Shown: positions 44,993-48,389 of the stretch, in pieces
How the letters are laid out: every line of letters begins with the position of its first letter
Position numbering within the stretch: position 1 is the stretch's first letter
Assembly: GCF_000337915.1 (NCBI RefSeq)
Contig: NZ_AOJE01000010.1
Location: 34,740-93,212 of the forward strand
Direction: 5' to 3'
Length of the DNA: 58,473 bases
Origin: Halorubrum saccharovorum DSM 1137
GTDB taxonomy: Archaea; Halobacteriota; Halobacteria; Halobacteriales; Haloferacaceae
The notes under the pieces: generated by a model
Database searches by the model: none
Seen by the model: only the letters and a program-made list of their open reading frames with translations
Told to the model about the DNA's origin: nothing
Position numbers and translations under genes: made by a program

Positions 44993-45066
44993 GCCAGGGG
45001 AGCATGGGCGGTTCATGCACTCGACTTGTAATCGAGACTTCCGGGGTTCAAATCCCTGCCCTGGCT
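44993..45066 (+). tRNA. tRNA-Thr (anticodon TGT)
   Basis: 74 nt without CCA. Acceptor GCCAGGG pairs with CCCTGGC, the discriminator is T, the D arm is GCAT-GGGCGGTTC-ATGC, the anticodon stem is CTCGA/TCGAG with loop CTTGTAA, and the T arm is CGGGG-TTCAAAT-CCCTG. It marks the boundary between core chromosome and the CRISPR-carrying accessory region. A CCCCT/AGGGG hairpin follows at ~45,087-45,102. Confidence 0.95.
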
Positions 45067-45144: not shown

Positions 45145-47322
45145 GTGTCGTGCGAGCCGACCCGTGGCTCCGCGCGCCAGCTGCGACGGAAGGGGGTGGT
45201 CGCAGTGACCGACCCGGACGACTTCTTCGGGCAGCTCGACGAGGCCGAGGTAGTCACTGACGACCAGACGGATTCTGTCGAAACATCGGTCGAGCAGACG
45301 GAAGCGGATGCACTCCGGGCAGATGCGGATACGACAGCCAACTCAACCACATCTACGGGGTCACGGCGACGAACCGTTAACCCCCGATACATCGCCAGAT
45401 GTCGCTTCTGTCAGAGTAAATTCAAACAACACCGCATCGCGGCGAGACACGAGGGCAGATGCGACGCGGAACCGGTCACGCAGTGTCGATACTGCGGCGA
45501 GGTGCATACCCGGACCGACGACCCAGAAATTCATCTCAAGACCTGTGAGGCGTACGAGCGCGCCGAGAAACGCCTCGACGACGAGGCCGAGTCGGATGGG
45601 GCCGACAGCGATGAGGAGACCAACTCCGGCGACGAACACTTCTCTCGGCGGTTCATCGACCCACAACCCCACGAGTTCCACGCGTATCTCAAATGGGATT
45701 GTTCGGATCTTGACAATCCGCTTCGGTCTTACTTCGGGCTTCGGTCGCTACAGGGCGAACACGACTTTGAAGAATATGGTCCGCTCGAAACGACGACGGA
45801 AATCAATGGTCAAGAGTGGAACGTAGATTTCGGATTCAAACGCTGCGGTATTGCCCCCCGAAATGTCGAAAATTTCCAACTCGAAGAGGTGAGAGAGTAC
45901 AAAGTCTACGTGTATCCGAAGGGGTATGATTCGTACGTAGATGCCAAGTCAGAGGCACGGAAGCGCGTGTACTTCCGTATCTCTCCCCGGTGGCCGGATA
46001 TCGAGACTAAGGAAGGGTATAGTGCGATGTCCAACCCCTACGACTTGGAGGGATACGACGTGGAAGTTGAGGGCTCATATTGGGACTTCGAGCAGTATCC
46101 AACGGTGCTCCGGCAGTCGCTCGATGCGCTCGCAACGCGTCAGGGATTCCGGTTCAACAGTCCGACCCCGATCTATCCGAGCGACTTCGATGAGGATCGG
46201 ATTCATAAGTCGTCGAACATCGTCGACGCGGAGCTGTACGTCAGAGTACTCAACGGAGAGACCGGTAAGGTCATCGCGTACGACGGAACGCTTCACGAAA
46301 TCTCCCTGTTGCTCGCCGGCGACCGCGAAGGGTACGCGAAGTCCGTCCGTGACGACCGGGAGTGTCCCGGTCACTACCATACCGCGACCATCGATTCTCG
46401 TCGTGCCGGCGAGTTAGTCGGCGGTCACGAATTGGCGAAGGAGTTCAAGCACTATCACATGCGAAACCCCGACGCCGTCGAGGGAACGCCACTCGAAAAC
46501 CCGAAGATCGGGGTCTCCTTCCAGAATTCGATCCACGACGACACGCTGTACTGGAACGACCTCGACACGCTCGTCACGGAGCTCGACGAGGCGCTGTTGA
46601 ACGTTCTCAACTGGTCGAGCATTCCGACCCGCCCGGACGGCCAGATGTTCGTCGACGACGACTATTTCGAGGTGACCGGTTCTCGTCGGTGGCGGAAGCT
46701 TCTCCCCGACCGTCTGCCACGAATCGAGGACAAACAAGACGACCAGATCTTCGCGACGGCGGCGCGGATGAACGAGACGGACACAGAGCTGGTCGAGACG
46801 CTCCTCACGGACGGCGGAGAGACATCTCCGAAGCAGTTGGCCCAATCCATCGACGTTCATATCGACACCGTCTATCGCGCTCTCAAGCGGCTCTCGCCGC
46901 TCGTGGATCATACCTACGGGGAGGTTCAACTCGGATCGAAGTACATCGCCCAGGAGCTCACGGGCTACATCGACTCGGTGTCGAACAGCATCAAGTCCGG
47001 CTTGGAGAACGCTCTTGACGGGCTCACCAGAGCGGAGGCTCACGCCGGTGACGACGACCCGTGGAGTCGGTGGCTCGACAGATACGGCGGGGAGATCAGC
47101 CGAACCGAGGGTGCCGATCCGGATGATCTCGACATCGGATTCCGGGCCGATACTCTCACTGAGGCGCGTCGTCTCCTCCGGAGTGGGGCGAGCCAGTGGT
47201 CGAAGGTGACGGGCGAGGACCTTCGGCAGTTCGCGTTCGAGTTCGCGCCAAAAATCACTCTCGTCGACGGTCGCGTATACGAACCCCGCCACTTTGCCGA
47301 CGCGCTAGGAACCCCCGGCTAG
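45145..47322 (+). CDS. Large zinc-finger/HTH protein, unknown function (mobile-element-like)
   Basis: 725 aa from GTG 45145; GTG 45205 (MTDPDDFFGQL) is an alternative. Residues ~85-135 hold two Cys/His zinc knuckles (CRFCQSKFKQHRIAARHEGR then Cys, and CRYCGEVHTRTDDPEIHLKT then Cys). A large middle part (~170-520) has no known domain, with conserved-looking YWDFEQYPTVLRQSLDALAT and HTATIDSRRAGELVGGHELA. A helix-turn-helix lies at ~560-610 (SPKQLAQSIDVHIDTVYRAL). It is typical of haloarchaeal viral or plasmid gene sets and sits directly after tRNA-Thr. A role in replication or regulation of an element is only a guess. Confidence 0.7.
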   Translation: MSCEPTRGSARQLRRKGVVAVTDPDDFFGQLDEAEVVTDDQTDSVETSVEQTEADALRADADTTANSTTSTGSRRRTVNPRYIARCRFCQSKFKQHRIAARHEGRCDAEPVTQCRYCGEVHTRTDDPEIHLKTCEAYERAEKRLDDEAESDGADSDEETNSGDEHFSRRFIDPQPHEFHAYLKWDCSDLDNPLRSYFGLRSLQGEHDFEEYGPLETTTEINGQEWNVDFGFKRCGIAPRNVENFQLEEVREYKVYVYPKGYDSYVDAKSEARKRVYFRISPRWPDIETKEGYSAMSNPYDLEGYDVEVEGSYWDFEQYPTVLRQSLDALATRQGFRFNSPTPIYPSDFDEDRIHKSSNIVDAELYVRVLNGETGKVIAYDGTLHEISLLLAGDREGYAKSVRDDRECPGHYHTATIDSRRAGELVGGHELAKEFKHYHMRNPDAVEGTPLENPKIGVSFQNSIHDDTLYWNDLDTLVTELDEALLNVLNWSSIPTRPDGQMFVDDDYFEVTGSRRWRKLLPDRLPRIEDKQDDQIFATAARMNETDTELVETLLTDGGETSPKQLAQSIDVHIDTVYRALKRLSPLVDHTYGEVQLGSKYIAQELTGYIDSVSNSIKSGLENALDGLTRAEAHAGDDDPWSRWLDRYGGEISRTEGADPDDLDIGFRADTLTEARRLLRSGASQWSKVTGEDLRQFAFEFAPKITLVDGRVYEPRHFADALGTPG

Positions 47323-47439
47323 CGCGACACCTCGTGAGAGGCATCACTATCGATTCGGGTAGTTAGCGGATTATTTTGCTTCTTTTCTGACGGTGATCGC
47401 GACTAGTTCGTCGATCTCTCGCTCCCTGAGTGACTACAC

Positions 47440-47620
47440 TTTCTCCCGCACCGCCCTAACTCCGAGGTGGGGTACCCACCTCTCCGTTAGGTGTGTGGCT
47501 AAGGAGCCACTGGAGTAAACCACTGCCTCGCTTCGCTCGGCAGATTACAGCAAAAACACAGGAGGTCGGCGCGCCTGACTCGGCGCGCCTTGCTACCGTT
47601 GCTTACCGTAGCAAATTCTC
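47440..47620. other. Hairpin-rich intergenic region
   Basis: This lies between the large zinc-finger gene and the CRISPR fossil repeats, in a stretch of 379 bases without a gene. It contains, in order: a hairpin GAGGTGGG-GTA-CCCACCTC (47464-47482) extended by CTAAC/GTTAG across symmetric TCC bulges, TGGCT-AAGG-AGCCA, a GGCGCGCC direct and inverted pair near 47,560-47,583, and TTGCTAC/GTAGCAA (47590-47614). No ORF is credible. It could be a structured RNA, a terminator cluster or an element end. Confidence 0.5.
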
Positions 47621-47636
47621 CAACAAATTATAGCGC

Positions 47637-47665
47637 GCTTCAGTCCGCAAAATTCCATCTGTAAG
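47637..47665 (-). repeat. Fossil CRISPR repeat
   Basis: GCTTCAGTCC followed by ATCTGTAAG at its other end matches about 21 of 30 positions of the CRISPR repeat. It is exactly 36 nt, one spacer length, away from the next degenerate repeat at 47702. This makes it a decayed repeat of the array's old end. Confidence 0.6.
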
Positions 47666-47701: not shown

Positions 47702-48389
47702 GTCTCAATCCAACAAGAATCGTCTGAAACCTTGCATCCCGTCGACGACGCTGTCGCGCAAGCTCGCCGAGGCTTCAACCCCACAATGGTTCGTCTGAAA
47801 GCTCGTTGCGCGGCGATACACGGTTGACGCAATTTCTTGCTTCAACCCCACAAGGGTTCGTCTGAAAGCACGTCCGAGTCGATCAGGTTGTGGCAGAGGT
47901 TGCTTCAACCCCACAAGGGTTCGTCTGAAAGGGATATCGGCGGGGACCCGAGCGTGGTCTACAACGGGCTTCAACCCCACAAGGGTTCGTCTGAAAGCGT
48001 CGCGGAATTGGCTGCCCAGCCCCTCACGGGTGCTTCAACCCCACAAGGGTTCGTCTGAAAGGAGTTCGACAGCGATGTCTCGGTGTACTTCTCGTAGCTT
48101 CAACCCCACAAGGGTTCGTCTGAAAGCCGCTGTCTGGACCGGCGCCGCGATCCGCGCGGCGCTTCAACCCCACAAGGGTTCGTCTGAAAGTGCGTTGGAC
48201 TGTACATCTGAACCAAGGTCGAGGACGCTTCAACCCCACAAGGGTTCGTCTGAAAGTGGTCTCCCCCTGGATGTCGTCGTCCTCGAAGGCAGCTTCAACC
48301 CCACAAGGGTTCGTCTGAAACGCTCCTGGTCTGTTCGTCGGCAAACGTGTTGACCCTGAGCTTCAACCCCACAAGTGTTCGTCTGAAAC
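47702..48389 (-). CRISPR. CRISPR array 1 (type I-B), 11 repeats, 10 spacers
   Basis: Repeats of 30 bp start at 47772, 47839, 47902, 47968, 48032, 48097, 48161, 48227, 48292 and 48360, with a degenerate 29-nt copy at 47702. In the crRNA sense (minus strand) the repeat begins CTTTCAGACG (GTTTCAGACG in the two leader-proximal copies) and ends GTTGAAGC, which should form the 5' handle. Spacers are 33-41 bp. The leader is on the right (48390-48462), so the degenerate end at the left is the oldest. The repeat closely resembles the Haloferax volcanii type I-B repeat. Confidence 0.97.

Follow-up and report, generated by a model that had tools for sequence, protein, structure and literature searches.

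The stretch of DNA analyzed here (hereafter the window) comprises 58,473 nucleotides of contig NZ_AOJE01000010.1 from Halorubrum saccharovorum DSM 1137. In it, a cluster of hairpins (47440 to 47620) is bordered on the left by a 725-amino-acid (aa) gene on the plus strand (45145 to 47322) and on the right by a CRISPR array on the minus strand, followed by cas1, cas4, cas3, cas5, cas7, cas8, and cas6. The 725-aa gene, here called rep, starts 79 nt past a tRNA-Thr gene (44993 to 45066), the last 14 nt of which (TCCCTGCCCTGGCT, 45053 to 45066, plus strand) form the core of attL and the left end of an integrated element. These 14 nt are repeated beyond the window as attR (G000:C10:102169-102182, window-equivalent 67430 to 67443), with a tyrosine integrase gene just inside the right repeat (L116:8877-10118). 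Between the two att sites the G+C content drops from ~70% to 54 to 64%, and three relatives (L190, L192, and L195) have empty sites, in which tRNA-Thr is joined straight to the right flank. Together, the repeats, the integrase, the G+C drop, and the empty sites define an element of ~22.4 kb (window-equivalent 45053 to 67429).

The type I-B CRISPR-Cas system on the element is complete and has two arrays, a short one and one of ~80 repeats; no virus genes were recognized in the element. Relatives of rep also adjoin tRNA genes (Thr, Ala, Phe, Pro, and Arg), and no homologues of these cas genes were found in the 9- to 14-kb stretches around them, so the CRISPR-Cas system looks like cargo of this particular element. 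Spacers of its arrays gave one 20-nt exact match and one 23-nt partial match (96%) to the compared loci, the remaining matches being short and chance-like. A degenerate CRISPR repeat (47705 to 47730; 21 bits, below the Rfam cutoff) lies at the trailer end of array 1, between array and hairpins. Near the integrase, the element also encodes a nucleotidyltransferase-domain protein (L116:6908-7570; NTP_transf_2, weak HVO_A0114 match), possibly a toxin-antitoxin or addiction component.

The family to which the 725-aa protein belongs (DUF7845/PF25227; E value, 1.2e-106; 357 bits against a cutoff of 27; hmmscan) usually carries the annotation "transcriptional regulator" but was named Rep-Arvir, and its members shown to be rolling-circle initiators, by Wang et al. 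in April 2026 (PMC13107129). Evidence from hmmscan, alignments, and an AlphaFold model identifies the gene as a Rep-Arvir initiator, with two N-terminal zinc fingers, a TBP-like catalytic domain, and a winged helix-turn-helix (HTH), in that order. Zinc-finger residues C86, C89, H102, and C106, and C114, C117, H130, and C134, are invariant in the alignment with relatives; Reps of the SNJ2 type lack both finger motifs. Replication of SNJ2 requires Rep residues Tyr283, E25, and E303 (PMC13107129). Tyr437 (KHYHM) aligns with the catalytic Y283 of SNJ2 (KHYYM) and is invariant, and Glu177 (QPHEF) aligns with E25 (CHEF). The equivalent of E303 is Gly456, so that the acidic residue is absent; family members HGPV1 and HRPV3 also have Gly there, without a proven explanation (PMC13107129), and E303 is therefore not a defining feature of Rep-Arvir.

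For the 725-aa protein as a whole, AlphaFold gave a poor model (pLDDT, 50), and the usable model was that of residues 166 to 601, built with a more diverse alignment (pLDDT, 79.6; pTM, 0.74). It matched TBP chains (Z, ~8.5 over 176 to 177 residues) and MarR/ArsR winged-helix chains (Z, 8 to 10.5), and the predicted fold, a TBP-like domain plus a MarR-like winged HTH, is in line with PMC13107129. A Foldseek search of viral models yielded no match that could be interpreted. The relation of Rep-Arvir to Rep_trans (PF02486) is purely structural (PMC13107129); at E values of ≤0.01, Pfam detected only PF25227 and not PF02486, and a Rep_trans entry is absent among the PDB matches listed for the model, which is not evidence against the relation.

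All stems that the initial annotation had named in the hairpin cluster are present, together with one that it had not. The first, H1, is an inverted repeat (GAGGTGGG-GTA-CCCACCTC, 47464 to 47482, plus strand). It had been described as extended by CTAAC/GTTAG arms, which do flank it across TCC/TCC (47456 to 47460 and 47486 to 47490). The second, H2, hereafter the nick hairpin (47487 to 47510, plus strand), reads TTAG and then GTGGCT-AAGG-AGCCAC; its stem (47495 to 47500 paired with 47505 to 47510) contains the named TGGCT/AGCCA. The unnamed hairpin, H3 (CTGCC...GGCAG, 47523 to 47543, plus strand), is followed by H4 (GGCGCGCC-TGACTC-GGCGCGCC, 47568 to 47589, plus strand) and by a fifth hairpin (TTGCTAC...GTAGCAA, 47590 to 47614, plus strand). 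Folded as RNA, 47440 to 47625 reached −76.8 kcal/mol on the plus strand (z, −4.5) and −90.9 kcal/mol on the minus strand (z, −6.2), and none of 200 shuffles folded as well on either strand, which bears out the suggested folding check: the hairpins are real and far beyond chance.

A blastn search of 47430 to 47640 against 170 genomes of the same family found strong homologues of ~47459 to 47592, with a sharp 3′ edge of conservation at ~47592, in relatives that include Halorubrum and Halobellus. The initial annotation had suggested a search for homologues next to relatives of the 725-aa gene, and the gene 5′ of every strong homologue spanning the nick hairpin was, in the same orientation, a homologue or remnant of rep (170 genomes). 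We also looked for the possibility that the stems are conserved nowhere else; they are conserved in other genomes. H4 is the 3′ limit of the conserved element. Neither the CTAAC arm nor the fifth hairpin is kept in relatives, so the CTAAC/GTTAG extension and that hairpin were set aside; the GTTAG arm is conserved because TTAG precedes the nick hairpin and not as the partner of CTAAC. The fifth hairpin, although present in the window, was not found in the aligned relatives, lies outside the conserved element, and, as far as these sequences show, does not belong to the origin discussed below. No further copies of the hairpin region were found in the same genome.

A covariance model of the element had matches in 127 of 391 genomes across the haloarchaeal class. 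Among the 100 matches at E values of ≤1.2e-4, 52 sit 737 to 893 nt downstream of a listed DUF7845 domain; with a tblastn check of the remainder, 87 of the 97 checkable matches (100 minus 3) lie beside rep or a remnant, and most of the 10 unlinked ones look degraded. An orphan copy with a strong score (79 bits; L180:3603-3737, G041 contig 2) lies downstream of a gene for a chromosomal Cdc48-like AAA ATPase, and the 3.6 kb upstream of this copy contain no rep gene. The pairing of rep with the element also occurs in plasmid p163 and virus LSV-48N. In viral contigs, the SNJ2-type hairpin pattern was found in nine stretches, all near a rep gene, and the pattern with a 6-bp stem was not found.

In SNJ2, the origin comprises an inverted repeat and, behind it, a hairpin at positions 176 to 197 past the rep stop codon; replication depends on the hairpin stem and on the loop AA (A191 and A192), mutation of which abolished replication, and just 210 bp downstream of rep sufficed for unstable replication (PMC13107129). 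Single-stranded DNA intermediates were observed, and the hairpin is the presumed nick site (PMC13107129). The SNJ2 hairpin (TTAGGGGGTGTGGCTAAGGCCA, +176 to +197) is matched in the window by 47487 to 47510 (TTAGGTGTGTGGCTAAGGAGCCAC), the window hairpin GTGTGGCTAAGGAGCCAC corresponding to GTGTGGCTAAGGCCA of SNJ2; A191 and A192 are A47501 and A47502, both invariant in the alignment. The spacing is likewise kept. Conserved motif 1 (GAGAGGCATCACT, 47336 to 47348, plus strand) begins 14 nt past the rep stop (GAGTGGCAACACT at 13 in SNJ2), and across dozens of haloarchaeal loci motif 1 (GAGWGGCAWCRCT) mostly starts 11 to 16 nt past the stop and the hairpin at +170 to +176, rarely up to +223. The window nick hairpin lies at the usual distance, ~172 nt after the stop codon, and the inverted repeat precedes it as in SNJ2. 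By position and by analogy with PMC13107129, H1 is the putative counterpart of the SNJ2 "bind site." Its sequence varies from relative to relative, in agreement with the findings of PMC13107129 on the inverted repeat; in several close relatives H1 is weak, which counts against reading the cluster as an origin. Both SNJ2-defined origin parts, the inverted repeat and the nick hairpin, are thus present here.

Two classes of origin were distinguished. In the SNJ2-like class, the stem has 4 to 5 bp and the loop is TAAG, whereas in the class seen in the window, the stem has 6 bp, the loop is AAGG, AAAG, or AAGA, and H3 and H4 follow. Common to both is a short AAA..AC motif ~10 nt 3′ of the nick hairpin, to which, from alignments and sequences, AAACCAC (47517 to 47523, plus strand) belongs. 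Of the loci whose region is full length, 24 combine zinc fingers, the 6-bp stem, and H4, and 42 lack all three; the exceptions are two loci with the 6-bp stem and neither fingers nor H4, and one with H4 and no recognized finger pair. H4 is thus present in 24/24 zinc-finger loci versus 1/45 without a recognized finger pair (that one having a frameshifted rep), counts that track a phylogeny, in which loci are not independent events. A chimera was observed on G041 contig 1 (L079/L186), where the Rep is SNJ2/HGPV1-like and lacks zinc fingers, and the origin after it has an SNJ2-like left half and a window-type right half in which H4 has decayed.

All six positions of the nick hairpin stem are paired in 26/26 aligned sequences, with compensatory changes in three pairs. 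For the stems of the nick hairpin and H4 together, 99.5% of cells pair, with 12 double changes versus 2.2 in shuffles (0/500 shuffles as high); these shuffles leave relatedness in, and sliding the partners likewise destroys the signal. The position of H3 is kept in the zinc-finger clade while its stem sequence shifts with compensatory changes, to the point of being replaced entirely with pairing kept (CTGCC/GGCAG, CTGTC/GACAG, GCCACC/GGTGGC, GTGCCC/GGGCAC, and GGAGTCT/AGACTCC). In H4 it is the loop that is conserved (TGACTC, TGACCC, or TACTC), and the stem covaries (GGCGCGCC, GCCGCGCC, and GGGGGCC). Since the SNJ2 origin works with 210 bp and no counterpart of H3 or H4, these two hairpins exceed the minimal origin. 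We tentatively suggest, at somewhat less than even odds, that H3 and H4 (loop TGACTC/TACTC) constitute a second functional module in zinc-finger Rep-Arvir replicons, a module that would either confer specificity through recognition by the fingers or act as a single-strand origin at which archaeal lagging-strand synthesis starts.

Sequence breaks were compared among 69 distinct elements by identity in the 100 nt before versus the 100 nt after the nick hairpin. Of 44 pairs at least 85% identical before it, 30 fell below 65% after it. HHPV3 (L085) and HHPV4 (L094) are identical through GTGTGGCTAAGGCCAC and different from the next base on; between HHPV3 and a G221 element, it is the sequence before this 16-mer that differs and the sequence after it that is identical, and Harhisp1 (L093) shows the latter pattern as well. 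L036 is listed with HHPV3, HHPV4, and Harhisp1 among pleomorphic viruses whose halves are exchanged exactly at the GTGTGGCTAAGGCCAC hairpin. Pairs of moderate identity could alternatively reflect faster divergence of the flank; the identical ones could not. From these comparisons, we read the nick hairpin as a recombination breakpoint between viruses and elements. Breaks there would be expected if Rep nicks and joins strands at this site, and for staphylococcal plasmids an exchange at rolling-circle origins has been proposed before (PMC5037232). The exchange point at the GTGTGGCTAAGGCCAC hairpin suggests where Rep nicks, and the breakpoints predict a nick within GTGTGGCTAAGG(AG)CCAC.

We conclude, with a probability of about 0.91, that the hairpins serve as the rolling-circle (double-strand) replication origin of the mobile element in which the neighboring Rep-Arvir gene lies. 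This reading is supported by the conservation and covariation of the stems, their constant spacing from and association with rep, the conserved catalytic residues, the fold, and the breakpoints at the hairpin. Weighing against it are Gly456 in place of the E303 that SNJ2 needs, the weak H1 of several close relatives, the presence of H3 and H4, for which the minimal origin gives no explanation, and the copies away from any rep gene, above all the strong one in G041. Of the roles offered in the initial annotation, an origin recognized by the adjacent zinc-finger/HTH protein is the one strongly favored, by a PF25227 Rep and an SNJ2 origin motif at the expected place. On the model of its SNJ2 homologue, Rep would dock on H1 through its winged HTH; in the zinc-finger clade the fingers perhaps help docking, and H3 and H4 are possibly contacted too. 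Y437 would then nick GTGGCT-AAGG-AGCCAC in its AA-containing loop, staying attached to the 5′ end while displacement of one strand is primed from the free 3′ OH. That this copy is active we only infer, and the integrated copy may be silent.

A structured RNA had also been proposed. A noncoding RNA of this kind, transcribed with or against rep and acting as a partner of the DUF7845 protein (guide, antitoxin, or regulator), would suit the strong folding of both strands (best on the minus strand), the conserved loops, and the constant company of the same protein, but nothing beyond foldability speaks for an RNA. At the gathering threshold, Rfam matched only CRISPR repeats and tRNA, none within 47440 to 47620, and at a permissive threshold it gave weak matches to the region far under their cutoffs. 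G-U pairs occupy 1 of 364 stem cells, which is unusual for RNA; moreover, the protein initiates replication, and mutagenesis in SNJ2 identified the counterpart of the central hairpin as a cis-acting replication element, interpreted as DNA (PMC13107129). We regard such an RNA as improbable. A transcription terminator is less probable again: the cluster does lie between the convergent rep and CRISPR array, and motif 1, in the view of the SNJ2 authors, may lie close to a termination site (PMC13107129), but no T-run follows the hairpins, the region is too long and too conserved, and in the relatives searched it is conserved with rep where no cas genes are near. The end of a transposable element, comparable to the hairpin ends of IS200/IS605 and raised earlier as an element end, could account for the sharp 3′ edge at ~47592 and for the breaks between viruses, but is a negligible prospect, as the true ends are tRNA-Thr and the 14-nt direct repeat ~20 kb rightward (with empty sites in three relatives), Pfam finds no transposase domain in the DUF7845 protein, and strand transfer at the nick site during rolling-circle replication explains the breaks.

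Read as a rolling-circle origin, the cluster very probably belongs to a kind known since 2026 (PMC13107129), of which the copy here is a variant with two extra conserved hairpins. It shares with SNJ2 (Betapleolipovirus) a site downstream of a PF25227 rep, motif 1, the inverted repeat, the hairpin GTGTGGCTAAG..., an equal distance from the stop codon, and the loop AA (PMC13107129); it differs in having a 6-bp stem and AAGG loop rather than a 4- to 5-bp stem and TAAG loop, in the two further hairpins (SNJ2 has no conserved H3 or H4), and in a Rep with two zinc fingers, which SNJ2 Rep lacks. LSV-48N (lemon-shaped Haloferax virus, PP151251.1) has H1, the 6-bp hairpin, H3, and H4 (loop TACTC) next to a zinc-finger Rep of 48% identity that is annotated as "transcriptional regulator," but carries its own structural genes and a DnaA-like gene, whereas the window element carries CRISPR-Cas; LSV-48N occurs both integrated and circular, with coverage exceeding 20-fold (PMC12714723). 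Plasmid p163 of Halorubrum sp. BOL3-1 (NZ_CP034693.1) has a Rep 84% identical and an origin 92% identical, but is a free plasmid record with no homologue of these cas genes in the stretch examined. Rolling-circle plasmids of the pT181/RepD family (Rep_trans, PF02486) likewise have a Tyr initiator with a TBP-like fold and a bind site beside the nick stem-loop (PMC13107129), but the present system shows no PF02486 sequence match, has a winged HTH fused to its Rep, and has unrelated origin sequences. Compared with the main text of PMC13107129, the zinc-finger class with H3 and H4 and the recombination breaks appear to be new; "zinc finger" and "single-strand origin" are absent from that main text, the supplements of which hold a plasmid-origin figure.

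An intergenic hairpin cluster and a gene family annotated as a transcriptional regulator can thereby be named and given a mechanism. The origin model of 2026 for Rep-Arvir reaches beyond pleomorphic viruses to replicons of a second class, that with zinc fingers, comprising plasmids, integrated elements, and a lemon-shaped virus, and the role of the extra conserved hairpins in this class is now open to testing. The nick hairpin marks where viruses and elements swap replication modules, and in H. saccharovorum a complete type I-B CRISPR-Cas locus travels on an element that has a rolling-circle replicon and an integrase of its own.
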